The notes beneath the pieces are model-generated. The model saw nothing but the letters and a program-made list of their open reading frames with translations. It ran no database searches and had not been told where the DNA came from. From Naumovozyma dairenensis CBS 421 (Eukaryota > Ascomycota > Saccharomycetes > Saccharomycetales > Saccharomycetaceae): a stretch of DNA of 64,000 bases. Shown here in pieces: positions 23,384 to 64,000 of the stretch (the stretch's first letter is position 1; every line of letters starts with the position of its first letter). The stretch is from contig NC_016481.1 of NCBI RefSeq assembly GCF_000227115.2, positions 634,189 through 698,188 on the forward strand, in the 5' to 3' direction. The translations under genes were made by a program, and so were the position numbers.

Positions 23384-24997
23384 ATGAAATTCTTGGATAG
23401 CTTAAAGAAACCAATCGTTATAAAAAGAAGAGCGGATTCAAACCATCCATCATCAATAATAACATCATCATCATCCTCAATCTTCTCTGATCATGCTATG
23501 ACCCCTCCTCAGAGAACTCCAGCCAATATACTAAAGGAACTACAACCGACCTTATTGAAATCAGTATTACCCATCTTAGTTCTTTTGAATGCACAAAGTT
23601 CGAAGAAATATTTCGAATGGAACAATACATCTGATACAAAGATCAATAGTAAATGGAATTTGGTAACGAGTGGGAACACGTCAGAAACGCTACCATTAGT
23701 GACTATCATTTTAACCGGTACAAAATTAAGAATAATAACATCAAGCAGGAAAAGGGAATTAACAATTGATTTATTAAAGCAAAATATCGAATTATTTCCA
23801 ACTTTATTAGAATTTAAAAACAACGATTTTTCATTATCTTGCTCATCTCCCGATGCTTTATTGACATTATACAGATTTTGCTTACTGTCCATTTTTGAAC
23901 ATTTTTCTATCTTTAAATCATTGACAGGCACTTTGACCTCCGTGTTGGGTCTACGTATGTTTGATATGCATATCATATTGAATACTCAATTTAACTTCAA
24001 AGATTGGTGTGAAATATACATTGAAGGGGAAGGATGGGTGAAAGCTTGGTGTGTAGTGAAAAAGAAGAAAAACGGTAATAGTGAAATCAGGTTTTATAAA
24101 AATAATAATTCATTAGCAACGAAGAATTTAATTTGTTTTATTTCCCCAGAAAAGGCTTCAATTCAAGATATTATGTTTTATAATGATAAAAATACGGAGA
24201 TTATTGGTGACGATGACGATGATGTGTGTGTTGGAAACACTTCGAAGTTTCAAGATATACATTCATTCTTAAATCAACTAAGAACTATTAAAGTCATTGG
24301 TAATATTTGCTTTTTGAATAATGATGGTGGTACTTCAAGTAAAAATTCTTCTAGATCTTCTTCTATTTCCAACATGTCTCAAATCGATGGCACTAATGTT
24401 TCCTCACCTCCTAAGAGGAAGATGTTTTCTCCCTCTAACAAAGGTCATGCTAGAAGTAGTTCCCATGTTAGTTCTATGACTATGCGTTCTAGTAAATCTA
24501 TAAAGGATACTGATTATACAATAAACTCTAGTGGGCTATTGATCAGACCAACACCACATAATGGTGTTTTCCATTTAGAAGCATTAATTCGTGTCATAAT
24601 TCCGATGATGGATGTAATGAAGTTGTATGGTCGTCCAATGAGATTTAAGAACGCAAGAAATGATCCAGACTCGTTAATGTTCGGTTTACCAAGATTACCA
24701 AATATTGATTACCTAGCTAAGGAAGAAATTGATTCATTTCTATCAGAAAAAAATCCAGAGATAGATGCAGATGAAGCTATTGAAGATACTAAAACCTCAG
24801 CTTTGAAGTTATTAGGCAAAGTATTATTTGATAACCTGTCGCGCAATGAAAACAGAGATACTGAATTATTATTTACCAGGTTAAGTGATCTGTCAATTAA
24901 TCAACCTAATGAAGGATTTAATGTGGTATCAGCAGAAAAAAATGGTTTGTCTAAAGAAAGCGTCTATACTTTAGCACCTTGCTCGCAGGTCGTCTAG
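23384..24997 (+). CDS. TPH3: pleckstrin-homology protein of the Tph3/Caf120/Skg3 family
   Basis: The 537-residue protein shows two PH-like segments: one around residues 70-190 (FEWNNTSDTKINSKWNL to the LYRFCLLSIFEHF helix) and one around 205-310 (FKDWCEIYIEGEGWVKAWCVV). A serine-rich linker follows, then a conserved region near 380-440 (LIRPTPHNGVFHLEALIR, MKLYGRPMRFKNARND). This fits S. cerevisiae YJL016W/Tph3 (~561 aa), of little-known function. MPS3-TPH3 order and strand match S. cerevisiae. Confidence 0.85.
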   Translation: MKFLDSLKKPIVIKRRADSNHPSSIITSSSSSIFSDHAMTPPQRTPANILKELQPTLLKSVLPILVLLNAQSSKKYFEWNNTSDTKINSKWNLVTSGNTSETLPLVTIILTGTKLRIITSSRKRELTIDLLKQNIELFPTLLEFKNNDFSLSCSSPDALLTLYRFCLLSIFEHFSIFKSLTGTLTSVLGLRMFDMHIILNTQFNFKDWCEIYIEGEGWVKAWCVVKKKKNGNSEIRFYKNNNSLATKNLICFISPEKASIQDIMFYNDKNTEIIGDDDDDVCVGNTSKFQDIHSFLNQLRTIKVIGNICFLNNDGGTSSKNSSRSSSISNMSQIDGTNVSSPPKRKMFSPSNKGHARSSSHVSSMTMRSSKSIKDTDYTINSSGLLIRPTPHNGVFHLEALIRVIIPMMDVMKLYGRPMRFKNARNDPDSLMFGLPRLPNIDYLAKEEIDSFLSEKNPEIDADEAIEDTKTSALKLLGKVLFDNLSRNENRDTELLFTRLSDLSINQPNEGFNVVSAEKNGLSKESVYTLAPCSQVV

Positions 24998-25427
24998 CTA
25001 CCCGATCTACGTGAGAGGAGCCTAGAAAATAATCTAAATACCCACCTTTCATATATACATGCCTTATGATAATGATTAATAATATTAAAAATCCTATCCT
25101 TTTCTTTCATAAACTATATAACTAAATTATAAAGTAGCAGAATTCGGTTTTTCAACAAGCTAGGTTTTACAAACTTAAACTTACCTGACTTTCGCAGCCT
25201 GGCTTCGAATTTCCCCAAAGTTCAAGCTTAAGCTTATTTCTAAAATATTTTAATTAAAAATAGAAGAATCCAAGGTAAATATTATAGTTTTTTTATTTCA
25301 TTTCGTTTATAAAAGTTCTATATATGATTTAGCATAATTTTTTCAATAGGCATCTTCCCACTGCACAGTATTGTGAATGAGTATATAAGAGGCGGTATTG
25401 CTACATCCCCAGATATTGCACTTATAC
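24998..25427. other. TPH3-THI4 convergent 3' region
   Basis: A/T-rich, no gene seen. S. cerevisiae has CCT3 (YJL014W) after TPH3; no trace of it is visible here. Confidence 0.6.
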
Positions 25428-26390
25428 TTAATCAGAGAAATGCTTGACGATTTCCAAACCAGCCTTGACACCAGAAATCAACATACTGGAAAATATCGGA
25501 CCCATACGGTTAATACCATACAATTCGGCAGATTCCATACCAGCAAAGTAAATGTTATCAACACCTGGATACTTACCAGCGTGGTTAACTACACCTCTTT
25601 CGGCGCTGTTCATATCTAGACCTTTCATCCCACCTAATTTCATATTGTCATCTAATTGAACAATTCTTTTGGCACAGAAAGCACCAAATGGGCCATCATG
25701 ACCAGTAGTGGACAAGATAACACCATGCTTCTGAGTAGCATCACGGGAACCATCGTCACTGTAACCAGCTAATTCGATGACGTTTGGATCCATACAACTT
25801 TGAGTGTCATGGGCTAAAGTTACTAAAGTCCAGTTAGTGACAACACCGCTGACTGTTAGTTTACCATGCTCATTGGGCTTGGTGACTAAGTCTTCAACAC
25901 AGGTACCGTTATATAATTTGACGTTTGGAAAGGCTAGGATCTTGGACAAGATGGTAGAAGTAAATAGAGCCGCATGCTTGACGACAACATAGTCACCTTG
26001 GTCTTCATACTCAACACCAATTTCCTTCAATAATAGATCAGCTGGTTTTCTTAAAACCATGGCACTCAATAATTGACCGGAAACCCAACATCCACCACCT
26101 GGAGCCAAATTCTGTTCGATAATGGCTATTTTCAAGTCTGGTCTGTTTTTAGCAATGACATAAGCAGCAGATAAACCAGAAGAACCGGCCCCGACAATGA
26201 CGACGTCAGAAATGGCATATTTATCCATATCTTGATAATAACGAGAAGTCATAGCACGAGAGACAGTAGCTTCACGAATTGGAGCAAATTGGAAATCATT
26301 CCAGTTGTCAATTTTGGCTAATTCACCCAATGGGTTTTCAGCGACAGAGTTCAATTGTAATTGAGAAACAGAAGTTTGAGTGGTAGACAT
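25428..26390 (-). CDS. THI4: thiamine thiazole synthase
   Basis: The 320-residue protein makes the thiazole half of thiamine from NAD and glycine. Its sulfur comes from its own active-site cysteine, so each molecule acts once. The NAD-binding motif [14 protein letters not shown] (glycines about 67-72) and the glycine-rich [12 protein letters not shown] loop are intact. The sacrificed cysteine is Cys199 in [13 protein letters not shown], equivalent to Cys205 of the S. cerevisiae protein (326 aa). The protein is cytosolic or mitochondrial in yeast and repressed by thiamine. Part of its upstream region (26687-27042) is repeated, inverted, at the window's right end. Confidence 0.97.
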
Positions 26391-27394
26391 TATTGTAAGT
26401 TGTAGGGTATTGTTTTTTATTGGCTCTTGGTTTATTGGTTGTTTTCTTAAGAGAGAGGGAAAAGTTCTTTTCTAGATTCATACAGAAACACTTGATCTAT
26501 TTATACTATTTAGATTCAGACCAATATTGTTTCGCAGTTTTTTTAAAGTAACTAAGAGAACGAAAATGTATAGTCGTTCCCTATGTGCAATGGGGTTAAG
26601 GCAAGTACTCCAATTTGCAACATGCTACGAATGTTTCAGACGCCACATCGAATCAGAATCGCATATTTCATCCTTTTCTCTAATTAAATTGCCTTGACTG
26701 GCATTATTATCGAAATATTGATGAGTTGTTTTTTTTACGTAACATTCATTATGAATTTCGGAAACCGAACATTTATTCTTTTAAGAGACCTCTAGCCCAA
26801 TGTCTTAAAGGAGTATATTGTCTGTTTCTTTGTAGTTTGATGCTTCCATTACTCTTGTTGATTCTTTAACAATTTGTGGCACTTCTCGGAAATGGAAACT
26901 GTTGGATTTCTTTCGGCCGACACGGAAAGTGTGACGCGTTTTGAAGTTATGAACTTCCCTGAACTTCCAAGAATTGCATATTACGGTTGAAGCAAATAAT
27001 GAATCTAAAGGACTAATTTGACTAATAGGATAAAGAAATGTTCACAACCACCGCATTAACAGATATTTCGCTCTATCCATCAGGTTGATCTGAGCAACAG
27101 CGAAAGTGTGCAAGTATGATTCATTTCTTAAAACTATAACATAAAGGAAACAACGTTAGCTTGCTCCATCATACCGGGAGCGCCGTCCAATTTAATTGCT
27201 TTGTTACAAGTGGCCTAATAATCAACAATAAGAGAAGAATTTTTAACAATATATCCATTCAATGGACTATTAATGCTTGTTGCAGTTATAAATAAATAAT
27301 ATATAATAAATAAGTAAAATTCCCGTAATGTTCTTTCATGCAGGCTCAAACTATTTTTTCTCAAAACCTTCTTCTATACCTTCAATGGGTATCA
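26391..27394. other. THI4 promoter and ILV3 3' flank containing an inverted-repeat arm
   Basis: No gene seen. The central 26687-27042 is the left arm of a long inverted repeat; the THI4-proximal 300 bp is its promoter. Confidence 0.7.
26687..27042 (+). repeat. left arm of a ~350-bp inverted repeat (partner at 63650-64000)
   Basis: This arm is the reverse complement of 63650-64000. Reading base by base I find two substitutions, a T-run of eight versus four, and one single-base indel. The right boundary is sharp at 27042; the left continues to the end of the window in the partner, so the true repeat may be longer. No LTR-type TG...CA ends or open frame is seen. Confidence 0.95.
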
Positions 27395-29167
27395 TTACAC
27401 ATCAGCGTCGTCAGCGTCCAAGACACAACCCAAAGAGGCGTCTGAAACCAATTTGGAGTAACCAGCTAGAGTACCTCTAGTATAACGTGGAGCTGGAGCA
27501 ACCCATTGGGATTTACGTTGGGCCATTTCTTCTTCACTAACCATTAAATCAATCTTATTGTTGTCGGAATCAATAACAATTTCGTCACCGTCTTTAACTA
27601 AACCAATTGGACCACCTTGAGCAGCTTCTGGAACAATATGACCAATCAAGAAACCGTGGGAACCACCAGAGAATCTACCGTCAGTTAATAATGCAACATC
27701 TTTCCCTAAACCGTAACCCATTAATGCAGAAGAAGGTTTCAACATTTCTGGCATACCTGGACCACCCTTTGGACCTTCGTATCTAATAATAACCACAGTT
27801 TTTTCACCCTTCTTGATTTCACCATTTTCTAAAGCTGTAATGAATGCATCTTCTTCATCGAAGACACGAGCTTTACCTTTGAAGTAAGTACCTTCTTTAC
27901 CAGTAATCTTACCAACGGAACCACCTGGAGCCAAAGAACCGTAAAGGATTTGCAAATGACCTGTAGGTTTAATTGGATTGGATAATGGACGAATAATATC
28001 TTGATCCTTTGGTAGAGGAGCAGCTTTAGCGGCACGTTCAGCCAAAGTATCACCAGTAACTGTAATTGTGTCACCATGCATGAACCCGTTGTCATATAAG
28101 AACTTAATGACAGCTTGAGTACCACCAACATTTAGTAAATCGGCCATAACATGCTTACCGGATGGTTTGAAATCACCTAATAATGGGGTCTTATCACTGA
28201 TTCTTTGGAAGTCATCTTGTGTAATCTTAACACCTGCAGAATGAGCAACAGCAATCAAATGTAGAACAGCGTTGGTAGAACCACCTGTAGCAATAGCATA
28301 AGTAATTGCGTTTTCGAATGCTTTCTTAGTGAAGATATCACGAGGTAAGACACCTAATTCCATAGTCTTCTTGATACTTTCACCGATGTTATCACATTCA
28401 GCTAATTTTTGTTGAGAGACAGCTGGGAAGGATGAAGAATTCGGTAAAGTAATACCCAAAACTTCAGCTGCGGAAGCCATAGTATTAGCAGTATACATAC
28501 CACCACAAGCCCCTGGACCTGGACAAGAATGTTCGACGACGTCACGTCTTTCAGCTTCAGTGAATTGTTTAGAGATATATTGACCATATGATTGGAAAGC
28601 GGAAACAACATCAATTTTTTCTGGGATCTTGGATGAACCGCAAGTTGGATGACCTGGTAAAATGGAACCACCATAAACCATAATAGATGGTCTATTATGT
28701 CTCCCCATAGCCATCATGACACCTGGCATGTTCTTGTCACAAGATGGGATAGCGATGTTTGCATCGTAATGTTGAGCCATCATGATAGTTTCAAAAGAGT
28801 TAGCAATGATTTCTCTACTTTGTAGGGAATATCTCATACCTTTAGTACCCATAGAGATACCATCAGAAACACCGATTGTATTGAATTGCATAGCTTTCAA
28901 GTTAGCCTTTTCAATGGATGCGGAACATCTATTGTTTAAGTCTAAAAGATGCATATTACATGGGTTACCGGACCACCAACATGAACCAACACCAACTTGA
29001 GCCTTGTTGAAATCATCTTTTTTGAACCCTGTAGCGTAAAGCATAGCTTGGGAAGCACCTTGACCTTTGGGTTCAGTGATCACATATGAATATTTATTTA
29101 ATTTCTTAGCAAGATTTCTCGTCGTAGAGAACTGTCTTGCTGCGGTAGCTTTCATTAACAAACCCAT
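27395..29167 (-). CDS. ILV3: dihydroxy-acid dehydratase (mitochondrial)
   Basis: The 590-residue enzyme catalyses the third step of isoleucine and valine synthesis, dehydrating 2,3-dihydroxy acids with an Fe-S cluster. The start [18 protein letters not shown] is basic, lacks acids and reads as a mitochondrial presequence. Cluster cysteines of the IlvD/Edd family are present: Cys70 (GNPCNMHL), Cys143 (PSCDKNMPG) and Cys221 ([14 protein letters not shown]). The length is close to S. cerevisiae Ilv3 (~585 aa). A Gcn4 site about 215 bp upstream fits general amino-acid control. Confidence 0.97.
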
Positions 29168-29843
29168 TGTTGATTAATAGAATTGGATTTCTCTTGATTA
29201 GTCTAGGAGGTGACTGATAAAAAAAATTAAATAAAGCAAGTTGTTAAAGAAAGAATCAATTCCAATGTACAGCTTAAATAAAAAAAGACTTGAATTCGTG
29301 ATGATTAATGTTGCAGCGAAACCTTAATTATCAACGGAGAGATCTTTACGTAACCTTTATATTATTTGACAGCAACTGACTGACTCACGAAAAAATCAAA
29401 GATTATTTTGACCGTGTTTCTGAAAAATTTTCCCTTCTGTGATTTCGTTAGAGCTCCCGGTTCAGGGCCGAGGAGTGAGAAGAGCCCACGCATAGCCGGT
29501 TCATATTCTTGATATTTAATTATAAACTAGACAAGATATACGTTAAGCTTAACAATTAACTAGAACGCTTTAGCTTTTCGAGGAGATACCTTGGAAAATG
29601 CAGCTATAGGTCCCAATCTAATCGTAGACTATATACAAGATTATTAGGAGTCAAAAATGAATTAAAGTTGGGCAACAAGCTGAAATTTATCAACATTTCT
29701 AGAATTTTTTTTTCTTGACTTTATCTCATTTTATGTAAAGTTTTATTTAACACGTTCAGATGGAGGGAATAAATAATTGGCATAAGGAATGGGACGGCAG
29801 CTCATTATCTCTTGTTAGGAGGAATAAAAAATGCTCCTCTTAA
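29168..29843. other. ILV3 promoter and PCT1 3' flank
   Basis: Besides the Gcn4 site there are CCGG-containing segments near 29456-29500 (CCCGGTTCAGGG, GCCGGTTC) that loosely recall Leu3 sites. No gene seen. Confidence 0.5.
29381..29387 (-). promoter_or_regulatory. Gcn4 site in the ILV3 promoter
   Basis: TGACTCA, the exact Gcn4 core, about 215 bp upstream of the ILV3 ATG. Confidence 0.7.
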
Positions 29844-31670
<1,827 letters not shown>

Positions 31671-32189
31671 CTAACCTACTCTTTTGATTAAATGGACTCC
31701 ACTGTCACTCTCTACTATATCACTAACTTGGTTCACTTTGAGGGCAAATGCAGCTTTTTCAAAACTAGGTTGCATTTCACCCTTTCCAAACCATCCAAGA
31801 TCACCTCCTCTCTTATACGATGAGCAATCAGATCTTTCCTTCGCTAACGATTCGAAAGTATTCTTATTATCATCCAATCTTAACTTGATAGTTTCCAATT
31901 CCTTAATAGCATCTTCCTTACTTAACGTAATATTTTGCGATCTATGAGATGCAGGTCTACGTGAATCCTTATGTTTAATTAAGATATGAAGACATCTTAT
32001 ACGGACTGGATTAACTCTCAAATAGTTTTTCAATTCCTCTTCATTTGTTCCTTCGGGAGATTCCCATTGAGATTGTTTCGATTCTGTATTGAAGAAATAC
32101 TCTCTCTTTTTAGATTTACTGTATCTTACTGTCCATGGCGTTGGTAATCCTGTTTTCCATTCTTCTTCCTTTGATTCGGGGGAACTCAT
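31671..32189 (-). CDS. ESS1: phospho-specific peptidyl-prolyl isomerase (Pin1 type)
   Basis: The ATG at 32189 (MSSPESKEEEWKTGLPTPW) gives 172 residues, close to S. cerevisiae Ess1 (~170); the frame continues upstream but lacks another ATG. A WW domain (about 14-48, LPTPWTVRYSKSKKREYFFN) precedes a parvulin domain (about 60-172) with CLHILIKHKDSRRPASHRS, the phosphate-binding basic cluster, KERSDCSSYKRGGDLGWFG, and the terminal VHLIKRVG. Ess1 isomerises phospho-Ser-Pro bonds in the RNA polymerase II tail. Confidence 0.96.
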   Translation of the reverse strand: MSSPESKEEEWKTGLPTPWTVRYSKSKKREYFFNTESKQSQWESPEGTNEEELKNYLRVNPVRIRCLHILIKHKDSRRPASHRSQNITLSKEDAIKELETIKLRLDDNKNTFESLAKERSDCSSYKRGGDLGWFGKGEMQPSFEKAAFALKVNQVSDIVESDSGVHLIKRVG

Positions 32190-32536
32190 CTTATTTTTCT
32201 TCTTGTAATATATAGTGGAAAGTTTTCGATGTGAGATAAACGACAAGGTCCTAAAGCATTGAGGTAAGTACGATAATTGTTAGTTCCCTTCAAGTAGTTC
32301 TCAATTTGCCTTTCTCTCACACTTAAAATAAGTTCTAAAGAAGTGTTAATACTAGAAAAAATGAAACCCGTACATCTTCTGTTCGTCTAGATCAAAGCCG
32401 TTACTTCACGTTAGGTGATAAAACCAAGATAAATCAAGATGAAAGCTTTGCACAAGGAATATTATTATTATTATTATTATTGTCCCTAGTGTGCGAGGGA
32501 TTATATATGCATATGTATATGTCTTAAATATTATGG
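32190..32536. other. ESS1-TES1 spacer
   Basis: ESS1 promoter and TES1 3' flank, with an ATT trimer repeat (about 32459-32481). No gene seen. Confidence 0.6.
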
Positions 32537-33598
32537 TCAAAATTTTGCCTTGATTTCCTCTTCAGGATCATAAACGACTAAACCTTCCTGCGATACAGTA
32601 GCTATAATATTACCAGAGTTGGAATCGAAATATTCACCTTGTACCAAGTGTTTATCCCAATGAGATCTTGAATTTTTAATTCTTAAATAAATCCAATTAT
32701 TAACCAATGGTAGTTGATGGAAATAAATTGAATGGTCTAATGATACACTAAATTTATGAGAATATAATGGTAGTTGATGGAAATATGGTAATGTTAGTAA
32801 CAGATAAGAGTCAGATAAGTATGCGAATGCGACATAGTTATATCTTGGGTCTGTATCAGGTGTAATTATTTTCAAACTACTAATGTTGTTGTGATTAGAT
32901 GTTGTTTGGCCAGATGAGAATTCTTTTGATTGAATTACTTTATGTCTTATTTTAACATAGTAATCTAGAACGGATGTTCTCCTTTGTGAGTAAAATAAAT
33001 CGTTAGGAAAGTTATATTCAATGGCACCCTTCTCGAAAACTTCTACTTGACGTTTCAAATAGTTTATATCTTTAAATCTATCAGATAAACGAGCGTACCT
33101 TTGTAAGAGACCTTCAGCCATGATTTTTTCAGTATACAATGATGCGGCAGGTTTATATTTATCTGGTGGAGGTGTTGAAGGTAATGATTCAATGTGATCC
33201 AAATGATGTAATGAATCGTGATCTTTATCTGAGTTTTGTTGGGAGAAAAGTATCATTGACTGGAAAATTAATTTATCATGTTGATACGCTCTAATTTGTC
33301 TATGGATGAAATTTTTACCATCTCTCAACTTTTCTACATGGTATAATATATTATTTTTAGGATCACCTCCATTTATGAAATAACAATGCATAGAGGTTGG
33401 CACATACGTCTTAGGTATTGTGTATAATGATGCTAATAACGATTGTGCCACTAGAGTCCCACCAAATGTACCTTTAGATCCGAGAGGAGCTGCAGGCAGA
33501 TTTTTGGTCAAGAATTTAGACGAAGATACTGGAACTAATTCCAATATATGTTCTATGTTCGATAACTTGGACAACTTTGTTACAGCGGGTTTACTCAT
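32537..33598 (-). CDS. TES1: peroxisomal acyl-CoA thioesterase
   Basis: The 353-residue protein is a double hot-dog acyl-CoA thioesterase that hydrolyses fatty acyl-CoA to free acid and CoA. Family motifs include GTFGGTLVAQSLLASLYTI, HCYFINGGDPKNNILYHVE and, in the second half, VSLDHSIYFHQ. It ends in AKF, a peroxisomal targeting signal of type 1 variant also found on S. cerevisiae Tes1 (~349 aa). The order ESS1-TES1 matches YJR017C-YJR019C. Confidence 0.95.
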   Translation of the reverse strand: MSKPAVTKLSKLSNIEHILELVPVSSSKFLTKNLPAAPLGSKGTFGGTLVAQSLLASLYTIPKTYVPTSMHCYFINGGDPKNNILYHVEKLRDGKNFIHRQIRAYQHDKLIFQSMILFSQQNSDKDHDSLHHLDHIESLPSTPPPDKYKPAASLYTEKIMAEGLLQRYARLSDRFKDINYLKRQVEVFEKGAIEYNFPNDLFYSQRRTSVLDYYVKIRHKVIQSKEFSSGQTTSNHNNISSLKIITPDTDPRYNYVAFAYLSDSYLLLTLPYFHQLPLYSHKFSVSLDHSIYFHQLPLVNNWIYLRIKNSRSHWDKHLVQGEYFDSNSGNIIATVSQEGLVVYDPEEEIKAKF

Positions 33599-33948
33599 AT
33601 TCTTTCTTTGATCTTTTCTTTTTTGTTTTTAAAGCAGTAGTTCGCTATTTCGAAACTTTTTATAATGGTAATGTTATTATTTGTTACTTGGTGTTTCTGA
33701 GACTTTATATACTCTACTTGGTTGAATTGGGGATGGAGATGTATTGAGGTAGTAGACTACGCTCTCGAAAGGATAAGGGTATATATGTCCAGGTTATTGA
33801 CTATTTCCGGGCTTTAATTTTTATCTCCCTCCGTTCGACAGACAATTTTGATGGGGGGGATATATGAAAAAGCGACAACTCCCCGTACTATTACGTATTT
33901 GGAGTCGAGGAGCACTCAACTAAAACTCTCGTTTTTTTGTGTAATCAG

Positions 33949-33975
33949 ACTCTCTCTCTCTCTCTTTCTCTCTCG
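33949..33975. repeat. CT dinucleotide repeat
   Basis: An almost pure CT run broken by one TT, about 350 bp upstream of TES1 (GA-rich on the coding strand). Confidence 0.8.
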
Positions 33976-34062
33976 GTTAACTAAGAATAAATGAATGATT
34001 GGCTCGAGTAACACAAAAAACCCATCCAAGTTTCCAAAAAAAAATTTTCTAATTTTTACGGG

Positions 34063-34094
34063 CCCGCGCTGTGCCGCGCTGTGCCGCGCTGTGG
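34063..34094. repeat. GC-rich decamer tandem repeat
   Basis: The unit GTGCCGCGCT recurs with exact 10-bp period, just over three times, within otherwise A/T-rich intergenic DNA. Confidence 0.9.
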
Positions 34095-34368
34095 TTTCGC
34101 GTTGTCTAAAACTCCATTGGTAATGTCTTTTTCAAATAGGATATTATACAAATGCCTCAGAGAATAAACTCCGTGATTTGTTGACTGAGACGTATTGAAG
34201 ATTCAGAGACAATAGTGACTCCATGTGTGAAGTTACTACAAGTTCACATCACCATATTACTGCCTTATAAATGTCGCTATGTCACTCTTTTTTAAATGAA
34301 AACCTTTTTTCCTGGATATATATCCGTACCAACCTTTATATACTGGCACAATCAAGTCAACTTATCAA

Positions 34369-34388
34369 CCCGCGGAACTTTCCGCGGG
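34369..34388 (+). promoter_or_regulatory. paired pleiotropic drug response elements (PDRE)
   Basis: CCCGCGGAA and its exact complement TTCCGCGGG are separated by two bases. Each half reads TCCGCGGG, matching the Pdr1/Pdr3 consensus TCCGYGGR. The palindrome is about 370 bp upstream of an SNG1-type drug-resistance gene. Confidence 0.6.
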
Positions 34389-34755
34389 ATCCATACATGT
34401 GTGGTACGGAAAAGCAACGTTAACGGGAATTTTTGGGGAAATGCGGACACTGTGATATTTAATCCTGTGTAAAACTGCCATAACCTGCAGACTGTTCATA
34501 CGTACGTAAGCCATGTCGGCTCTTGTATAACATGAATAATCACTAACACGTGTGTGTATATATGTTAGCCATTCATAGTTCATCATTTAAACACCACTTA
34601 CTAGCTTAGTCTTGCTCGCAGATTGCTTGATCATCAGATATACAAAGCCTGTAAGGAATAATTACTTTGAACTTATTATTGAACCATAGTTTTTGCGTCG
34701 CAAGGGGGGACTTTTTTGTTAGAAAGGAATTAAAACAAACAACAGCATTTTATAT

Positions 34756-39113: not shown

Positions 39114-42564
<3,451 letters not shown>

Positions 42565-51509: not shown

Positions 51510-51791
51510 ATGTCCGAACTACTGCAAGAATTACAAAAGTTTTTAATCTTATCGATCGATTTTCCAAGCCAAAGAAAAACAGCATTGTTACAAAGAAATA
51601 TTCTGATAATTGGGGGTATTATCTCATGTATTGTTGGATTTCAAACTGGCTCACTTAGTTTGTTAATGGGATGCTACGGTGTAGCTTATCTGATTACCGT
51701 GTTAGTTGTCGTACCCGCGTACCCCTGCTTCAATAAGCAAAAGCTACAATGGGTACAACCCAAATTAACATCGATTGAAATCAACAAATGA
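51510..51791 (+). CDS. SPC1: signal peptidase complex subunit Spc1
   Basis: The 93-residue protein starts with a cytosolic segment (LILSIDFPSQRKTALLQRN) and has two closely spaced membrane spans (about 29-45 and 49-70), then a charged tail. This is the layout of Spc1/SPC12, a non-catalytic ER signal peptidase subunit that helps exclude membrane proteins from cleavage. Length matches S. cerevisiae Spc1 (94 aa), and MET3 lies next to it as in S. cerevisiae. Confidence 0.93.
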   Translation: MSELLQELQKFLILSIDFPSQRKTALLQRNILIIGGIISCIVGFQTGSLSLLMGCYGVAYLITVLVVVPAYPCFNKQKLQWVQPKLTSIEINK

Positions 51792-52146
51792 ATGTATTCA
51801 CTTTTTGATTTACCAATATATTACCCGTGATTATGAACAGAAAGTTCTAGTGGAATAGTGCACTAACTAATCTCTATCATTAACCCTTTATGCCGATAAC
51901 AGATTGGAATGAAGGCTTATAAACGTACTTCATCAAAATTGCATTATTGCATGAATTCGACATGTACTTTTCAGTTCCGCTTAAAAAAATCAACTACGTA
52001 GAAGTTCGGTACTTCGCACGAAAACTTCTATTCTTTCCAATTTTCTAATTTTTATCATTACTTTTTGTCTATATACATCATTAATTAATACATACCATCT
52101 TTTAAAATACTAAAAAAATAATCAGTTTTTAAAATCTCATCATTGC
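51792..52146. other. SPC1-MET3 convergent 3' region
   Basis: A/T-rich, no gene seen. Confidence 0.5.
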
Positions 52147-55001
<2,855 letters not shown>

Positions 55002-55789
55002 NNNNNNNNNNNNNNNNNNNNNNNNNNNNNNNNNNNNNNNNNNNNNNNNNNNNNNNNNNNNNNNNNNNNNNNNNNNNNNNNNNNNNNNNNNNNNNNNNNN
55101 NNNNNNNNNNNNNNNNNNNNNNNNNNNNNNNNNNNNNNNNNNNNNNNNNNNNNNNNNNNNNNNNNNNNNNNNNNNNNNNNNNNNNNNNNNNNNNNNNNNN
55201 NNNNNNNNNNNNNNNNNNNNNNNNNNNNNNNNNNNNNNNNNNNNNNNNNNNNNNNNNNNNNNNNNNNNNNNNNNNNNNNNNNNNNNNNNNNNNNNNNNNN
55301 NNNNNNNNNNNNNNNNNNNNNNNNNNNNNNNNNNNNNNNNNNNNNNNNNNNNNNNNNNNNNNNNNNNNNNNNNNNNNNNNNNNNNNNNNNNNNNNNNNNN
55401 NNNNNNNNNNNNNNNNNNNNNNNNNNNNNNNNNNNNNNNNNNNNNNNNNNNNNNNNNNNNNNNNNNNNNNNNNNNNNNNNNNNNNNNNNNNNNNNNNNNN
55501 NNNNNNNNNNNNNNNNNNNNNNNNNNNNNNNNNNNNNNNNNNNNNNNNNNNNNNNNNNNNNNNNNNNNNNNNNNNNNNNNNNNNNNNNNNNNNNNNNNNN
55601 NNNNNNNNNNNNNNNNNNNNNNNNNNNNNNNNNNNNNNNNNNNNNNNNNNNNNNNNNNNNNNNNNNNNNNNNNNNNNNNNNNNNNNNNNNNNNNNNNNNN
55701 NNNNNNNNNNNNNNNNNNNNNNNNNNNNNNNNNNNNNNNNNNNNNNNNNNNNNNNNNNNNNNNNNNNNNNNNNNNNNNNNNNNNNNNNN
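55002..55789. other. assembly gap (788 N) inside TDH copy 2
   Basis: The gap begins in codon 66. A 999-base TDH gene would still need about 802 bases, more than the 788 N, while the sequence after the gap is not TDH coding. The N length is therefore an underestimate. Confidence 0.95.
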
Positions 55790-55811: not shown

Positions 55812-56317
55812 ATATGAAGACTTATTATTTTCGTTTTTGTGTCTTTTCATTAATTGGATGAACTATACAGAGATATCATTGACAGATATCTCAGGTCGAC
55901 AATGTAGGAGCACTTAATGGGAATAGTTGAGTCAATTTTTCATGGCATCTTGAATTCCGAATATGAGTCTGAATTTTTCAAAAGTGAAAAGGAGTGGAAG
56001 ATAAGTGCAACACTGGAATATTTGCTTTTATTTATCTCTGATACGTAACTGTCACATCATATTACTTGCTGTTAAAATATAAATCGAAGTAGAGGAAACC
56101 TGCACTAATTCCCTTGCCTTCTAAATAAAAGGGTTAGAGGGTAGGATTTGAAAAGTGAGGAATATAAACTTCTTTCTTAACCAATTTTCGCTTGTAATGA
56201 GTGTAACACACACGATTTAATACTCTACGTACAGTCCAGTGTCGCATATTCTGGATTGACTATCTACTGGCTTATGGCTTATTAGTTCCTATTAAACAAT
56301 AGAAAACCAATAAGTAT
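55812..56317. other. TDH copy 2 3' flank to tRNA-Trp
   Basis: No gene seen. It does not resemble the 3' flank of TDH copy 1. Confidence 0.6.
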
Positions 56318-56424
56318 GAAGCGGTGGCTCAATGGTAGAGCTTTCGACTCCAGTTAAACTCTGGAACTTCCCGGAACTAATAATTGCAATCGAAGGGTTG
56401 CAGGTTCAATTCCTGTCCGTCTCA
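56318..56424 (+). tRNA. tRNA-Trp(CCA) with a 35-nt intron
   Basis: The sequence closely follows S. cerevisiae tW(CCA): GAAGCGGTGGCTCAATGG with box A, then box B in GGTTGCAGGTTCAATTCC. Anticodon CCA is at 56350-56352. The intron is 56354-56388 and exon 2 starts ATCGAAGG. Position 37 is G, and the intron segment CTGGA pairs with TCCAG around the anticodon. The acceptor stem carries an A-C mismatch at the third pair (3-70). A seven-T Pol III terminator follows at 56429-56435. Confidence 0.96.
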
Positions 56425-56428
56425 TATA

Positions 56429-56720: not shown

Positions 56721-58127
56721 ATGGTAAGATTACAATATTCTACAAAACACTTACTGATTCCGCTGATATTATCATCCAATCTTCATACGGTACTAGCAGA
56801 TTCGTCGACAGTATCATGCAATCCGTTGTCAGCAACAAATTGTGCATCAAATCCTGCCCTTGCTACAAGCTTTGCCGAAGACTTTAGTTCAGAACCTGAT
56901 AGGTTTATCGACCAAAAACATGCCGGTACAATCACCTACGGAGGTGATGGTATGAATATGACTTTAGCCAAAAGATTTGATAATCCATCTCTAAAGTCAG
57001 ATTTTTATATAATGTATGGTAAAGTGGAAGTTATATTAAAGGCAGGTAGTGGGACAGGGATTATTTCCTCATTTTATTTGCAGAGTGACGATTTAGATGA
57101 AATTGATATCGAATGGGTTGGTGGTGACGGTACTCAATTCCAATCCAATTATTTCTCGAAGGGGAGCGTTGTAACATATGATAGAGGTGAATTCCATACT
57201 GTTAGTTCTCCACAGACGGAATATCATAACTATACACTAGATTGGGCCATGGATAAGACAACTTGGTATCTTGATGGTACGCCCGTTAGAGTCTTACCAA
57301 ACACTACCTCTGAAGGATATCCTCAAACACCTATGTATATTATGATGGGAATTTGGGCAGGTGGTGACCCAAGTAATGAACCTGGTACAATCGAGTGGGC
57401 AGGTGGACTAACAGACTATAGTCAAGCACCATTTACAATGGGAATTAAGAGAGTGATTGTCACAGATTATTCCACAGGGAAAACGTATTCGTATGATGAC
57501 CAATCAGGTTCTTGGGAATCTATTAGAGCTGAAGATGGTACAGTTAACGGTAGATATGAACAAGCGCAGGAAGATTTTGCATTATTGGCACAAGACCAAT
57601 CAATATCAGGTGCTACTTCATCTAGTACGTCTTCTTCAAAGGTGTCATCTAGCACAGTTTCATCGTCCACTTCATCATCTTCCATCTCATCGTCTTCTGT
57701 ACTAACTTCAGCGGTGATTTTCTCCTCCCCTTCATCGTCAGCCTCTTCTATTCCTTCGTCAAGTTCTGCTTCTAGTTCATCTTCTAGTTCCAGTGTCGAA
57801 ACAACGACCCGCAGTTTAACATCAAAAAACTCAACGTCAAGTTCAAACATCTATGTCTCATCCTCCCCTACCACTTCATCGTCATCATCAATGAGTTCTG
57901 CAAGAACAGTATTGTCCTCTTCCTCTACCAGAATAACTTCTTCTTCTTCTTCTTCTTCTTCATCTGTATCGATATCTGGATCTCCTACTTCTACTTCAAC
58001 TTCTTCTTCTCACTCTGGAAGTTCAACAAGTCATTCTGTGGAAACTTCTTCTGCTGCTGCTACAGCGGTCGTTTTCTTTAATAGAGGCATTACCTTTTTA
58101 CTAGTGTTCATTTGTTCTTTAATATAA
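56721..58127 (+). CDS. CRH1: cell-wall chitin-glucan transglycosylase (Crh family, GH16)
   Basis: The 468-residue protein has a signal peptide (about 1-26), a GH16 domain (about 45-275) and a Ser/Thr-rich stalk (about 290-440) ending in a hydrophobic GPI tail (FFNRGITFLLVFICSLI). The catalytic motif DEIDIEW lies at 126-132, with nucleophile Glu127 and acid/base Glu131 intact. No chitin-binding CBM18 is visible, which favours Crh1 over Utr2 and Crr1. Crh enzymes join chitin to beta-glucan in the wall. S. cerevisiae CRH1 (YGR189C, ~507 aa) lies near HIP1 and TDH3. Confidence 0.93.
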   Translation: MVRLQYSTKHLLIPLILSSNLHTVLADSSTVSCNPLSATNCASNPALATSFAEDFSSEPDRFIDQKHAGTITYGGDGMNMTLAKRFDNPSLKSDFYIMYGKVEVILKAGSGTGIISSFYLQSDDLDEIDIEWVGGDGTQFQSNYFSKGSVVTYDRGEFHTVSSPQTEYHNYTLDWAMDKTTWYLDGTPVRVLPNTTSEGYPQTPMYIMMGIWAGGDPSNEPGTIEWAGGLTDYSQAPFTMGIKRVIVTDYSTGKTYSYDDQSGSWESIRAEDGTVNGRYEQAQEDFALLAQDQSISGATSSSTSSSKVSSSTVSSSTSSSSISSSSVLTSAVIFSSPSSSASSIPSSSSASSSSSSSSVETTTRSLTSKNSTSSSNIYVSSSPTTSSSSSMSSARTVLSSSSTRITSSSSSSSSSVSISGSPTSTSTSSSHSGSSTSHSVETSSAAATAVVFFNRGITFLLVFICSLI

Positions 58128-58543
58128 CAACGAGTATCAAAAGTAGACGCTTTAGTTAATATATATATGCATCTTTAGACTCTTAAAAAAACACCATATT
58201 GTACGTCCCCTTCAATCCTGTAATTACGGCTTCTCAGGCGACTTTCTAATAACCTTTTATAGTTATAATAATAACTGCTGTATTTAGGTTTAGATTTAGA
58301 TAGTCTAGTTTATGTACGTATCGTTAAATTGTTTATCGATTTTAGCCGCCCAGGCCAATTTTTTTTGAAGAGAGAAAAATTAATGTGCCCAACTTTGAAA
58401 TGGCTGATACAATACTAGGAAAAAAAAATAACGTTAAAAAAGTTTGATAATTATACAAGGACTTCAAACTAAACCCGTATTTGACAATATTACTACAAAA
58501 CTCATATGATTCGAAGCTTTTCACATCAACATTAAATAGCAAT
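58128..58543. other. CRH1-RPC17 spacer
   Basis: A/T-rich; no gene or clear site seen. Confidence 0.5.
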
Positions 58544-59050
58544 ATGAAAGTACTTGAAGCTAGAGATGCATTTTTAAGTGATTATGAAGTCCTCCAATTT
58601 TTATCAAAATTAGAAAGACAAAATCATTGGGATGCAGAAACCATACTAGAAAATGAAAAACATCGAAAATCGAAGAACAAAAGAAAAATTAGGAGACCTT
58701 ATAATCATCCTGAGCTACAAAATATCACAAGTACATCACTGAATTTTCTGAATATGAACAAGAATTTCGTCCAACAAGAAGGTGATGAAGAAATGGAAGA
58801 TGAAGAAGCTAAGGTGAAGAACCTAGAGAGAGATATGAAATCACCTCTTTGTAGAATGAACGACGCGAAATTTTCAGAATTTGTCACTCGTCTGAACGAA
58901 TATGAATTGTTCAAAGTGGAAAAATTGCAAATCGTCAACCAATTACCTGGTAACATGGTGCACCTGTATTCAATTGTAGAAGAATGTGACTCGAGATTCA
59001 CCAATGAACAAATAGAAACAATGTTAAGCATAATAAAAGAATATTCATAG
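58544..59050 (+). CDS. RPC17: RNA polymerase III subunit C17
   Basis: The ATG at 58544 (MKVLEARDAFLSDYEVLQFL) gives 168 residues, close to S. cerevisiae Rpc17 (161); the frame extends 21 codons upstream but that part is not conserved. Conserved blocks are RPYNHPELQ, LFKVEKLQIVNQLPGNMVHLYS and EECDSRF. Rpc17 pairs with Rpc25 in the Pol III stalk (the Rpb4-like partner) and contacts initiation factors. A variable acidic insert lies in the middle. VTC4 follows, as in S. cerevisiae. Confidence 0.95.
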   Translation: MKVLEARDAFLSDYEVLQFLSKLERQNHWDAETILENEKHRKSKNKRKIRRPYNHPELQNITSTSLNFLNMNKNFVQQEGDEEMEDEEAKVKNLERDMKSPLCRMNDAKFSEFVTRLNEYELFKVEKLQIVNQLPGNMVHLYSIVEECDSRFTNEQIETMLSIIKEYS

Positions 59051-59710
59051 ATTATGGGTGGGCGTTTATTCTATTGAATAAGTAGTTTACCGAGAATACT
59101 AAATATTAAGTTGCATTATAGAATATATAACATTAAGTTGAAAGTATGGTTTTCCTCATAGGAGTCTATGTAGGCTGAATGTTACCTTTCCATACCATTT
59201 TCTTGCTTAGTTGAGAGACTATCAGGTAAATGTTTGTGTTGCTGTTTTGTACTCATTATAATATTGCGTAACGGTACATCTATCACAGAGCCTCTTCTCA
59301 GATAGTTAATGAAGAGCACGTGTATATAATTCTTTCAAAGTATTACGTTCAGGAAGTAAACTTTGCGTACGTACGTCTGTGAAGAGAATGTTTGATAAAC
59401 TGGCAAAGTATAGTTAAAAACTGTTTGCAATGTTTTCTATACCATACAGTGATAAAAAAGCAGTTTTTATACTTCTATTTATTCGAGCATTTCTTTGTTT
59501 CTTATGGGAGTTTCATACAGTATTTAGACTACTTACAAATTGGCACATGAGATTTCGCGCGTGTCTTATAAGTTCAGATTCCCAATTCATCCTTTAAAAC
59601 TATTTAGTCTTCCTCATTGCAATTCGAATATAAAAGTTAACTTCGAGTTAATTCTTCAAAAGTGAATACTAAATCATTAGAGATAACTCAACGTTATTTT
59701 TTAATTCAGG
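59051..59710. other. RPC17-VTC4 intergenic region
   Basis: No gene seen. It contains a CACGTG at 59317-59322 in the VTC4 promoter. Confidence 0.55.
59317..59322 (+). promoter_or_regulatory. Pho4-type CACGTG in the VTC4 promoter
   Basis: CACGTG, 389 bp upstream of VTC4. VTC genes are PHO-regulated in S. cerevisiae; Cbf1 binds the same core. Confidence 0.45.
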
Positions 59711-61903
59711 ATGAAATTCGGTGAGACGTTGCGCAAGTCCCTAATTCGACAATACAGTTACTATTATATCGCATATGATGATCTGAAAAAGGAGCTAGAA
59801 TACAATTTAGAGGCAAATAATGATGAATGGTCCCAAGATTTGGAAACTTCATTTCTGGAAGCTTTGGAAATTGAGTTGGATAAAGTGTATAGCTTTTGTA
59901 AAGTCAAGCATGGTGAAGTCGTACGAAGAGTTAAAGAAGTTCAACAACAAGTTCAACATACTGTTCGTCAGATTGATTCAAATAATCCTCCAACAGAATT
60001 AGATTTCGAAATTCTAGAAGAAGAACTAAGTGACGTCATCGCTGATGTTTATGATCTTGCTAAGTTTTCACGTTTAAACTACACTGGTTTTCAGAAAATT
60101 ATCAAGAAACATGATAAGAAAACAGGATTTATATTAAAGCCTATCTTCCAAGTCAGATTGAACGCCAAGCCATTCTTTAAAGAAGACTATGATGATTTGG
60201 TTGTAAAAATATCACAACTTTATGATATTGTTAGATCAAGTGGGAGGCCAATTCATGGGGATTCATCTGCTGGGGGTAAACAACAAAATTTTGTAAGACA
60301 GACAACGAAATATTGGGTACATCCAGATAATATTACTGAATTGAAACTGATTATATTAAAACATTTGCCAGTTCTTGTCTTTAACACAAACAAGGAATTT
60401 GAAAGAGAAGATTCTGCAATTACATCTATTTATTTTGATAATGAAAATTTAGATTTATACTATGGTAGGTTACGTAAGGATGAAGGAGCTGAAGCACATA
60501 GGCTAAGATGGTATGGTGGTATGGATTCTGACACTATTTTTGTGGAAAGGAAAACTCATAGAGAAGATTGGACAGGTGAAAAATCAGTTAAAGCGAGATT
60601 TGCATTAAAGGAACGTCATGTTAACGACTTTATCAAAGGGAAATATACGGTTCCACAAGTGTTCGCCAAAATGAGAAAAGAAGGTAAGAAATCGCTGAAA
60701 GATATTGAAAATTTGGAAGCACTGGCATCGGAAATTCAGTACGCTATTTTGAGTAGAAAATTAAGACCAGTGGTAAGGTCGTTTTACAACAGAACCGCAT
60801 TTCAACTACCTGGCGATGCAAGAGTTCGTATATCTTTAGACACTGAGCTTACAATGGTTAGAGAAGATAGCTTTGACGGGGTTGACAGAACGCACGGTAA
60901 TTGGAGAAGGACTGACATCGGCGTGGACTGGCCATTCAAACAACTAGACGATAAGGATGTATGTAGGTTTCCCTATGCCGTTTTGGAAGTAAAATTACAA
61001 ACACAGCTTGGTCAGGAACCTCCAGAATGGGTTCGTGAATTAGTTGGTTCTCATTTGGTGGAACCAGTCCCCAAATTTTCCAAATTTATCCACGGTGTCG
61101 CCACCTTACTAAATGATAAAGTTGATTCCATCCCATTTTGGTTACCGCAAATGGATGTGGACATTAGAAAACCGCCGTTGCCAACAAACATTAATATTAC
61201 CCGTCCAGGAAGAGGCGAAGGTGGTAACGAAGATGATTATGATGAGGATGATGAAGATGACAGCGCCCTTGTTGCAGCTATGACAGATGCTCCAGGTAAT
61301 AGCTTCGATATTGAAGAAATTATTGGATATGGTTCAATAAATCCATCAACGAATGAAGGTCCAGCCCAGAATGCTCAAACAGGAAGCCACATACATACAG
61401 TAGCAAGTGCCAATGCGCCATACTATCAAAGAAAAATAAGAGAAGCTAAGAATCCTATTGGCAAGAAATACTATGAAACAATAGCGTTTTTCGATCACTA
61501 TTTTAACGGTGACCAAATTTCAAAATTGCCAGGTGGGACAGTCTTTGATACACAAATCGAAGCCCCACCTGGGAAATCAATTTGTGTTCCAGTTCGTGTT
61601 GAACCAAAAGTGTACTTTGCAACCGAGAGAACGTATCTTTCATGGGTTTCTATTGCGATCTTATTAGGTGGTGTTTCTACTACATTGTTGACATATGGGA
61701 CGCCAACTACGATGCTGGCATCTATAGGTTTCTTCGTTACTTCTTTGATAACGCTTTTCCATGCAGTTAAAGTGTATGCGACTAGAATCGTGAATATTCG
61801 TTTAAAAAGAGCTATTGATTATGAGGACAAAGTTGGTCCACCCATGATTTGCATCTTCTTATTCCTTTCTATCGCCTTTTCATTTTTCTGTAACTTAGTT
61901 TAA
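59711..61903 (+). CDS. VTC4: polyphosphate polymerase, catalytic VTC subunit
   Basis: The 730-residue protein has an SPX domain (about 1-150, [24 protein letters not shown]), a triphosphate-tunnel polymerase domain (about 190-480), an acidic linker and three C-terminal membrane spans (about 640-730). The tunnel residues needed for polyphosphate synthesis fall at the S. cerevisiae numbers: Lys200, Arg264 and Arg266 (HRLRWYGG), and Glu426 (AVLEVKL). This identifies the active Vtc4 rather than Vtc2 or Vtc3. The complex makes polyphosphate into the vacuole. S. cerevisiae Vtc4 is 721 residues, between RPC17 and MAD3, as here. Confidence 0.97.
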
Positions 61904-62215
61904 TATTATCAGATAGCGTAGCATAATATTTACTCTTCATAATTTAGATTCTCAAGAATTCTACATTTTCTCTTTGTAACTGACCCTATTTTAAAGTGCA
62001 GTGGCTTCTATATTTTGTCGTCTCTTAACCTCTCTCTATATGGATCTAATCCTTCGGTAATTTTGCGTTTGATAGATAATTCGAAATTTTACATATGCCT
62101 CCGATATTATTGAAGAATAGATCAGACATATGCATCATTTATTAACAAATACTTAACATTGCGATTACCATGCCCTAGCGCTCTCGATTTTTCATATAGA
62201 CCATTATTACTGACT
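61904..62215. other. VTC4-MAD3 spacer
   Basis: A/T-rich, no site recognised. An in-frame ATG at 62170 would add 15 codons to MAD3 but is not favoured. Confidence 0.5.
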
Positions 62216-63466
62216 ATGCCTTCTACTATAAAGAATAAAAAGAGGGAAATAATTGATTTTACTAAGATTGAACTAGAAAAAGAGAATATTTTGCCGCTGC
62301 GACAAGGACGATCAGCTGAGCAACTTACAAAAGCTTTAGAGGCTGATGAAAAAGAGAAGAAACGAATAAAGAAGTATTATGAGAGACGTCTTATTGATGA
62401 ATTAGATACATTTGATGACCCTTTGGCGTTACATTTGGAGTATATCAATGCCATTAACAACTTATATCCACAAGGTGCATCATCAAAACAAAGTGGAATG
62501 TTAGAGATTATAGAACGATGTTTAATGCAATTTCAAAATTCCGAAAAATATAGGAATGATATACGATATTTAGAGATGTGGTTATGGTATATTGAGATAT
62601 TTTTTCCTGATGAACCCCAGGAAGAACAGTATATTTTTGTCTTTATGTTAAGAAACAAGATAGGATCTGGATTAGCTCTATTTTATGATTCCTTTTCTTC
62701 ACTCTTAATCGAAATGAAGAGATATGATGAAGCAGCACAGTTACTACGGTTGGGAATTCGTGAGCATTCAAAACCAGCCTATTTGCTGATAAATAGACTT
62801 CAAAGCTTAGAATGCGAATTATTAGATAAGAACATTCCCCTAAATGATAATTTGCCCTTAGAAGCGTATTTCACCAATGTGAACGATCCGCTGATACTTG
62901 GAAGGCACAAAACAGACATCATAACGAGTAATTCTGCCAATAGAGACGATTCTCCACGTGACAGCTGGAAGGAAACCTTGCAATTACATGAAGACATCTT
63001 CCAAGATGAACCAGTCGAAGTGTCTAATATATTTGAAGATTATAGGAAAGATATTACTGCAAAATTGGAACCGAAAAGGGCTAGAAATAAGGAAAATAAG
63101 ATGGGATCGATAGCTTTAGAAGCAAATATTAACCTTGGAACATTACCTCAAGACGAATCGTCTGTTGTGACGGACAGATTTAAAGACAAAATTCCAATAT
63201 ATACAGACCACTTCGGAAGGACCGAACCTGTTTATAAATACATTGAAACCATAAATAGTAAAGCCGAAAAGATTGATTGTAACTTTGGGTTATTCTATGA
63301 GGTTAGCGGGAATGAGTATTGTATCGAAGAAATTTTAGCTATTTCAAGAAACTTATATACTAGAGACAAAGTAGCAAATTCTGGAAGGGCAACAGAAAGC
63401 GTTGAGTTGCCGACAAGAAAAAAAAATAAAGCTAGAACAATGATACAACGGCGACAAAGGAAATAA
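62216..63466 (+). CDS. MAD3: spindle-checkpoint protein Mad3 (BubR1-like, no kinase)
   Basis: From the ATG at 62216 the protein has 416 residues. KEN box 1 (ELEKENILPLRQGR, residues 22-24) precedes a TPR-like Bub1/Mad3 homology domain (about 45-200) with YLEMWLWYIEIFF and LALFYDSFSSLLIEMKRYDEA. KEN box 2 is at 292-294 (ARNKENKMG). Near the end NEYCIEEILAISRNL resembles the Bub3-binding GLEBS motif. No kinase follows. Mad3 inhibits APC/C-Cdc20 within the mitotic checkpoint complex. S. cerevisiae Mad3 is longer (~515 aa). MAD3 and BUB1 arose from one MADBUB gene at the genome duplication. Confidence 0.94.
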   Translation: MPSTIKNKKREIIDFTKIELEKENILPLRQGRSAEQLTKALEADEKEKKRIKKYYERRLIDELDTFDDPLALHLEYINAINNLYPQGASSKQSGMLEIIERCLMQFQNSEKYRNDIRYLEMWLWYIEIFFPDEPQEEQYIFVFMLRNKIGSGLALFYDSFSSLLIEMKRYDEAAQLLRLGIREHSKPAYLLINRLQSLECELLDKNIPLNDNLPLEAYFTNVNDPLILGRHKTDIITSNSANRDDSPRDSWKETLQLHEDIFQDEPVEVSNIFEDYRKDITAKLEPKRARNKENKMGSIALEANINLGTLPQDESSVVTDRFKDKIPIYTDHFGRTEPVYKYIETINSKAEKIDCNFGLFYEVSGNEYCIEEILAISRNLYTRDKVANSGRATESVELPTRKKNKARTMIQRRQRK

Positions 63467-64000
63467 GAAAATTCTGTCAAAATATTCTATGATTTGCTTA
63501 ATTGTTCCACATCGACGCGAAATCGAGGACATCATTTAAGACAATTCGGGTGGTCACTATACGTAAAGTCACGTTGATGAACCCATATTTACCTTTCCCC
63601 ATACCGTGGTCGGTAATATTCGGGAGCGAACATCATAATAATAATTGTAAACATTTCTTTATCCTATTAGTCAAATTAGTCCTTTAGATTCATTATTTGC
63701 TTCAACCGTAATATGCAATTCTTGGAAGTTCAGGGAAGTTCATAACTTCAAAACGCGTCACACTTTCCGTGTCGGCCGAAAGAAATCCAACAGTTTCCAT
63801 TTCCGAGAAGTGCCACAAATTGTTAAAGAATCAACAAGAGTAATGGAAGCATCAAACTACAAAGAAACAGCAATATATTCCTTCAAGACATTGGGCTAGA
63901 GGTCTCTTAAAAGAATAAATGTTCGGTTTCCGAAATTCATAATGAATGTTACGTAAAACAACTCATCAATATTTCGATAATAATGCCAGTCAAGGCAATT
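63467..64000. other. region downstream of MAD3, entering the inverted repeat
   Basis: The first ~180 bp is unique A/T-rich sequence; from 63650 to the window end it is the right arm of the inverted repeat. No gene seen. Confidence 0.7.
63650..64000 (-). repeat. right arm of the ~350-bp inverted repeat (partner at 26687-27042)
   Basis: Reverse complement of the THI4-ILV3 intergenic arm with >99% identity. It is still matching at the last base, so it continues outside the window, in the direction corresponding to the THI4 promoter. Confidence 0.95.

Follow-up and report, generated by a model that had tools for sequence, protein, structure and literature searches.

The stretch analysed here comprises 64,000 nucleotides of Naumovozyma dairenensis CBS 421 (contig NC_016481.1, below C3, positions 634189-698188, in a genome of 13.53 Mb and 11 contigs); we call it the window, and positions past its right end are given as window equivalents. 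Two pairs of inverted, nearly identical repeats are found here, an outer one made of pieces of the THI4 (thiazole synthase) locus and a nested one made of pieces of TDH (GAPDH) genes, and they enclose stretches of 37 and 14 kb, respectively. As assembled, the order from left to right is MPS3(+), TPH3(+) (block A); THI4(-); ILV3(-), PCT1(-), ESS1(-), TES1(-) (block F); SNG1(+), TMA22(-), SKI6(-) (block E, reversed); TDHa(-); HIP1(+), SUI2(+), MHO1(+) (block C); GPI14(-), PEX39(+), YJR011C(+), SPC1(+), MET3(-) (block D, reversed); TDHb(+); the transfer RNA (tRNA) gene tRNA-Gly(CCC)(+); CRH1(+), RPC17(+), VTC4(+), MAD3(+) (block B, reversed); the right THI4 arm with a run of N; and, beyond the window, REC107(-), LSM8(+), MDE1(-) (block G). 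An earlier note, made from the letters of the window, had proposed a single 37-kb inversion bounded by an inverted repeat; its placement of MPS3 and TPH3, ending at 25 kb, and of RPC17, VTC4 and MAD3, on the plus strand at 58-63 kb, agrees with the gene coordinates.

Gene names were taken from Pfam, PDB and homologue matches where these were available, and the rest from the order in Saccharomyces cerevisiae. TES1 is 67% identical to TES1 of Naumovozyma castellii, LSM8 is named from PDB matches, REC107 from two adjoining Mer2 matches, and MDE1 from an aldolase-II match together with its position. The names PCT1 and ESS1 are our assumption from family and order, those of SNG1 and TMA22 and of the genes in blocks C and D were likewise presumed in part, and YJR011C, which had no family match, is named from position and order alone.

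The THI4 and TDH inverted pairs

The outer repeat can be read in two pieces. Positions 26687-27047 match 64000-63645 in inverted orientation; of the 361 aligned columns 353 are identical, 3 are substitutions and 5 are gaps. The other piece, 25288-25369, matches 65152-65071, also inverted, at 80 of 82 positions. The inverted repeat that the earlier note had placed at the segment ends is indeed there. The right arm is interrupted by 1,070 N (64001-65070, the first N being one base past the window end), against 1,317 bases expected from the left arm. The edges of the repeat are abrupt and the flanks compared have no further similarity. A genome search with THI4 returned one full-length match, which is the left-arm copy, and, in further open frames, four short ones of 22-27 bits, two of which are at the family cut-off. 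Among the best candidates scored, the 361-base piece occurs at two genomic places, both of them these arms, and a mobile element is rejected on this count; the TPH3-ILV3 interval matches itself and the two arm pieces, and nothing else among the matches listed. Most simply, each arm would be a THI4 locus, and the second locus would have collapsed in the assembly. THI4 is not among the open frames adjoining ENP2, which we take to be its neighbour in S. cerevisiae; the ENP2 region is itself rearranged, so the origin of THI4 is not shown.

The nested repeat pairs 39916-40306 with 55001-54611 in inverted orientation (388 of 391 bases identical), and covers 194 upstream bases and the start of the GAPDH gene. 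TDHb then runs into 788 N, compared with the 802 bases of TDHa that remain, and a TA repeat follows the gap. The first 197 coding bases of TDHb are 99% identical to TDHa but 86% to the copy on C4, the contig that carries the duplicated sister region, and 85% to the copy at C3:711 kb, which suggests that the pair is young or has been homogenised. We predict that the N runs in the THI4 and TDH pairs are assembly gaps, each with a further, almost identical copy of the respective gene inside. The gene at C3:711 kb (window-equivalent 76893-77891) is another GAPDH gene; it lies about 12 kb past the right arm in the same orientation as TDHa, to which it is 90% identical. Beside HIP1 on C4 there is one GAPDH gene.

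The scan for self-matches covered 103.3 kb of this contig and, on C4, the sister stretch of 110 kb. With a length of at least 150 bases and an identity of at least 90%, the THI4 and TDH pairs are the only inverted matches in the 103.3 kb, and none was found in the C4 stretch. At a lower bar (100 bases, 75%) one more inverted pair appears here, TDHb with the GAPDH gene at C3:711 kb (85.5%, 200 bases), and one on C4 (430 bases, 83.7%, C4:500245-501892). The latter sits between BUB1 and the CRH1-like gene and adjoins an N run. The N runs on this contig are 216, 788, 1,070 and 20 bases long, and those on C4 are 280, 6 and 177 bases long; the 216-base run is at window 1388-1603.

Inferred ancestral gene order and minimum number of inversions

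The ancestral order was compiled from the duplicated sister region on C4, the S. cerevisiae order, and locus tags of Torulaspora and Saccharomyces kudriavzevii; the repeats played no part in setting it. On C4 the order is MPS3(+), CCT3(+), BUB1(-), CRH1(-), tRNA-Gly CCC(-), HIP1(+), TDH(-), then PDX1, XKS1 and FYV8, and after these SNG1(-), YPP1, a second SNG1-like gene, PMT6 and ELP2. The names from PDX1 through ELP2 are in part our assumption, above all those of FYV8 and PMT6. When 25 window-side proteins were compared with this stretch, six found a match (MPS3, MAD3, CRH1, HIP1, TDH and SNG1), all in the order A-B-C-D-E. We take blocks D to G otherwise to follow YJR009-YJR024 of S. cerevisiae.

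CCT3, which according to the earlier note should be sought right of 64 kb or elsewhere, was found on C4 next to BUB1. It is present on C4 and was not found here, and TPH3 shows the opposite; we infer that this pattern is a reciprocal loss after the whole-genome duplication, which explains the absence of CCT3 at the TPH3-MAD3 junction. A tblastn search gave no CCT3 remnant in the two junction intervals, one of which is largely N. Inverting the segment between the arms restores the TPH3-MAD3 neighbourhood, as had been proposed, and the ancestral order puts the two genes on neighbouring sides of CCT3. The S. kudriavzevii tags are 10G1940 for Tph3 and 10G1960 for Mad3.

Torulaspora globosa is a pre-duplication yeast. 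Its TPH3 and TES1 carry the tags 0E04810 and 0E05110 (0E04760 and 0E05060 in a second record set), i.e. they are 30 tags apart in both sets if tags are assumed to run in units of ten. Our merged ancestral list gives a distance of about 27, and in the window four genes separate TPH3 from TES1. The case that would have spoken against the earlier note, relatives sharing the order of the window, is answered in part in this way: T. globosa differs from the window.

At the level of blocks the window reads A F -E C -D -B G against an ancestral A B C D E F G. The minimum is 4 inversions; there are 24 shortest routes, and each of them consists of the segments BCDEF, CD, D and F. The distance at gene level was calculated for 21 genes (THI4, TDH and the tRNA were omitted) from the cycle count, with hurdles ignored. 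Here 4 of the 190 possible inversions shorten the distance to the ancestor: ILV3..TES1, ILV3..MAD3, HIP1..MET3 and GPI14..MET3. The limits of the ILV3..MAD3 inversion, which is the one that had been proposed, coincide exactly with the THI4 arms, and those of HIP1..MET3 with the TDH arms. The remaining two each share one end with a repeat, and at their other end (33599-34755, compared with the genome, and 47548-48029, scanned for inverted repeats inside the interval) no repeat was found. The chance that two random slot pairs both fall among the four is 3.3e-4; allowing for one ancestral TDH slot, a hand calculation gives about 4/190 x 2/19 = 0.002, which we judge the fairer figure. If block D, block F or both are reversed in the ancestor, both repeat-bounded inversions are kept in every shortest route.

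The idea that one inversion explains the window had to be given up. After a single 37-kb inversion three more are still left to the ancestor, and ILV3, not TES1, faces REC107. The flip would leave ILV3 beside REC107-LSM8, whereas the S. cerevisiae numbering has TES1 there, and ILV3-PCT1-ESS1-TES1 must flip too. At least four inversions are needed, with two more in the interior, one of them TDH-bounded.

Probable recombination between inverted copies and its alternatives

We favour the explanation, to which we give a probability of roughly 60%, that the 37- and 14-kb stretches, lying between inverted, 98-99% identical THI4-locus and TDH pieces, were each flipped by recombination between the copies. 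By parsimony both flips would have occurred, and the ILV3-TES1 and MET3-GPI14 blocks would have been inverted as well, each with one end in common with the repeats. Crossing over between inverted copies (non-allelic homologous recombination) would turn the segment between them, and gene conversion would keep the copies alike; the segments could flip back, and both orientations may exist in the species. By analogy with the chromosome XIV locus of S. cerevisiae (see below), the flips may also be rare events that were fixed over long times. The identity of the arms as the THI4 locus, the nested TDH pair, and the fact that both second copies run into N are additions to the earlier note. Even more speculative is the idea, which we hold to be doubtful, that two metabolic genes form nested reversible switches giving four arrangements, and that the inversions themselves doubled THI4 and TDH and would thus be a source of new gene copies.

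Inversions are common in yeast evolution but, to our knowledge, it is rare that the sequence which caused one can still be recognised at its ends. In the present case the polarity of two nested inversions can be taken largely from the duplicated sister region of this genome, and inverted gene copies stand at the ends of both. The nested inverted repeats of gene loci are real, and they lie where the ends of the inversions are inferred.

It is useful to compare the region with the flip/flop locus on chromosome XIV of S. cerevisiae, a 24-kb region with inverted repeats for which Salzberg et al. (2022, PMC9731477) proposed recombination and gene conversion. In both cases the inverted repeats are almost identical, carry genes and enclose further genes; the enclosed segment is 24 kb long at chromosome XIV, and the two segments here are 37 and 14 kb long. 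There are also differences. Firstly, the arms belong to the THI4 and GAPDH families here, and to Centroid and a second sporulation gene there. Secondly, the repeats are 4.2 kb long at chromosome XIV, as opposed to about 1.8 and 1.2 kb here, where the second copies are partly N. Thirdly, two pairs are nested here, which is not so at chromosome XIV, and both orientations are documented there while here there is one assembly. The region would work like the chromosome XIV locus but is a different locus. Near-identical inverted repeats are found at both segment ends (the rest of each second copy being N), and the segment is inverted on the assembly as given, relative to an ancestral order that is partly presumed from S. 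cerevisiae. Among the titles and abstract openings returned by a literature search, none describes this locus.

Several points weigh against recombination between the copies. Where the sister tracks are interleaved, the order within blocks follows the window; the TES1-REC107-LSM8 and MET3-GPI14-TMA22 neighbourhoods are presumed from S. cerevisiae names. If block E is reversed in the ancestor, the shortest routes number 153, and the two repeat-bounded inversions are kept in 140 and 123 of them. By their tags, TPH3 and TES1 are on different chromosomes in Zygotorulaspora mrakii, and so are MAD3 and TES1 in Kazachstania africana, which suggests breaks in this region in other lineages as well. POL31 (DNA polymerase delta subunit B family; 13449-14864, minus strand), which we take to be a neighbour of SUI2 in S. 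cerevisiae, lies beyond MPS3, and its position suggests that the region underwent more events than the four inversions counted. Since the second copies run into N, the right-hand THI4 and TDH junctions depend on scaffolding; the uninterrupted left arms span 1.2-1.8 kb of near-identical sequence where an assembler could mis-phase; and at both pairs it is the derived orientation that was assembled. On C4 there are N runs as well, at places where no comparable repeat was noticed, so an N run alone is no proof of a collapsed repeat. Finally, about 53,800 mitoses and 950 meioses passed without an observed flip at chromosome XIV (PMC9731477), which suggests that flipping back may be rare here as well.

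Two other explanations have to be considered. In the first, a duplicative inversion, staggered breaks around a single THI4 and a single TDH would have been filled in, leaving an inverted copy at each end. We regard it as unlikely, even though it fits the TDH geometry equally well as recombination between copies: after the inferred flip of block D one of the breakpoints would fall exactly on a single TDH, and if the break there was staggered, the TDH|tRNA-Gly and TDH|SKI6 neighbours are expected in the orientations observed. The abrupt edges of the repeats are also in its favour. However, recombination between pre-existing copies yields the same end state, and a single-copy ancestral THI4 is seen at neither junction, nor beside ENP2. 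In Drosophila, inversions by staggered breaks reportedly have a short sequence in inverted copies at either end, as is the case here, where the copies are gene loci with 98-99% identity. Among the best 20 of 82 papers listed for this mechanism, four name staggered breaks; by title, two of the four concern Drosophila and one herring, and none concerns yeast (Drosophila papers listed: PMC5080602, PMC7584159).

The second alternative, an assembly artefact, we consider less probable still. One or both segments would truly be in ancestral orientation, the unique flanks having been misjoined across THI4 and TDH repeats that had collapsed. In both pairs there is an N run in the second copy, the arms are 98-99% identical across their readable parts, and with either segment turned back the order is one inversion closer to the ancestor, all of which agrees with this alternative. 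Moreover, the chromosome XIV inversion was overlooked in many strain assemblies, as short reads cannot resolve its 4.2-kb repeats, which are longer than the present ones (PMC9731477). On the other hand, the lengths of the N runs vary, as size-estimated scaffolding would give. The TDHb gap of 788 is near the predicted 802, which argues that read pairs probably span it; the THI4 gap, with 1,070 against 1,317, fits less well. Even if the segments were misjoined, the repeats would remain real and at the inferred breakpoints, and the claim about orientation alone would fall. We point to these two assembly junctions as comparative maps may rely on them.

Other breakpoints and features

The repeat pieces, N runs and gene positions listed in Table 1 are read directly from the assembly.

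Table 1. Features of the window and of the sister region on C4 (window coordinates unless C4 is given)
Feature	Position	Strand	Remark
Block A: MPS3, TPH3	20922-24997	+	ancestral orientation
MPS3	20922-22808	+	Sad1_UNC
TPH3	23384-24997	+	PH_26
Left THI4 arm	25288-27047	.	pieces 25288-25369 and 26687-27047; THI4 and near flanks between them, opposite the right-arm N run
THI4, thiazole synthase	25428-26390	-	PF01946, 335.5 bits
Block F: ILV3, PCT1, ESS1, TES1	27395-33598	-	PCT1 and ESS1 named from family and order
ILV3	27395-29167	-
Breakpoint F|E (TES1|SNG1)	33599-34755		single-copy in genome search
Block E, reversed: SNG1/YJR015W-like (+), TMA22 (-), SKI6 (-)	34756-38391
TDHa (GAPDH) and 194 bases upstream	39114-40306	-	coding sequence 39114-40112; left arm of nested repeat, matched part 39916-40306
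Piece of dispersed element	40632-41086	.	at E|C breakpoint, beside TDHa; one end only kept
Block C: HIP1-like permease, SUI2, MHO1	42565-47547	+	names partly presumed
Breakpoint C|D	47548-48029
Block D, reversed: GPI14 (-), KPWE-domain PEX39/YJR012C (+), YJR011C (+), SPC1 (+), MET3 (-)	48030-53682		names partly presumed
TDHb	54611-55789	+	right arm of nested repeat; sequence to 55001, N 55002-55789, then a TA repeat; the end given is that of the gap
tRNA-Gly(CCC), intron-containing	56317-56425	+	marks former B|C junction
Block B, reversed: CRH1-like, RPC17, VTC4, MAD3	56721-63466	+
RPC17	58544-59050	+
VTC4	59711-61903	+
MAD3	62216-63466	+
Right THI4 arm, inner part	63645-64000	.	then 1,070 N, then 82-base match ending at window-equivalent 65152
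C4 MPS3-like	C4:492358	+
C4 CCT3	C4:494918	+
C4 BUB1	C4:496708-499785	-
C4 CRH1-like	C4:about 503466-504236	-
C4 tRNA-Gly CCC	C4:504825-504934	-
C4 HIP1-like	C4:505202	+
C4 TDH	C4:507374	-

In the two duplicated regions alike, the intron-containing tRNA-Gly(CCC) gene marks the CRH1|HIP1 junction; in the window it is at a breakpoint. A tRNA scan of the window found none when introns were disallowed and two when they were allowed; Rfam at gathering scores gave the same two tRNAs and nothing else. For the S. cerevisiae lineage, Gordon et al. (2009, PMC2675101) give 73 inversions since the duplication, with re-use of breakpoints and tRNA-associated breakpoints. The present region resembles these cases in as much as several inversions share ends and the tRNA-Gly is at the B|C breakpoint; in contrast to them, it is protein genes that form the repeats here, instead of tRNAs or Ty elements.

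A search within the C|D breakpoint interval itself found no inverted repeat. The TES1|SNG1 interval was rejected as a dispersed repeat, the genome search having returned the interval alone. The dispersed element beside TDHa has further matches at C8:270192-270938, C7:50238-50658, C7:471986-472281, C5:377430-377851, C10:741936-742529 and C3:976300-976363, and three of the four other copies that were read carry terminal inverted repeats of about 50-75 bases, i.e. they are like miniature inverted-repeat transposable elements. The idea that this element caused the E|C break was set aside, since at the partner junction none of its 12 genome matches is present as an element; among the titles returned by the literature search there was none on it. 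On C4, two SNG1-like (DUF3533) genes (516469-518076 and 522299-523873) flank YPP1, and a third is in the window.

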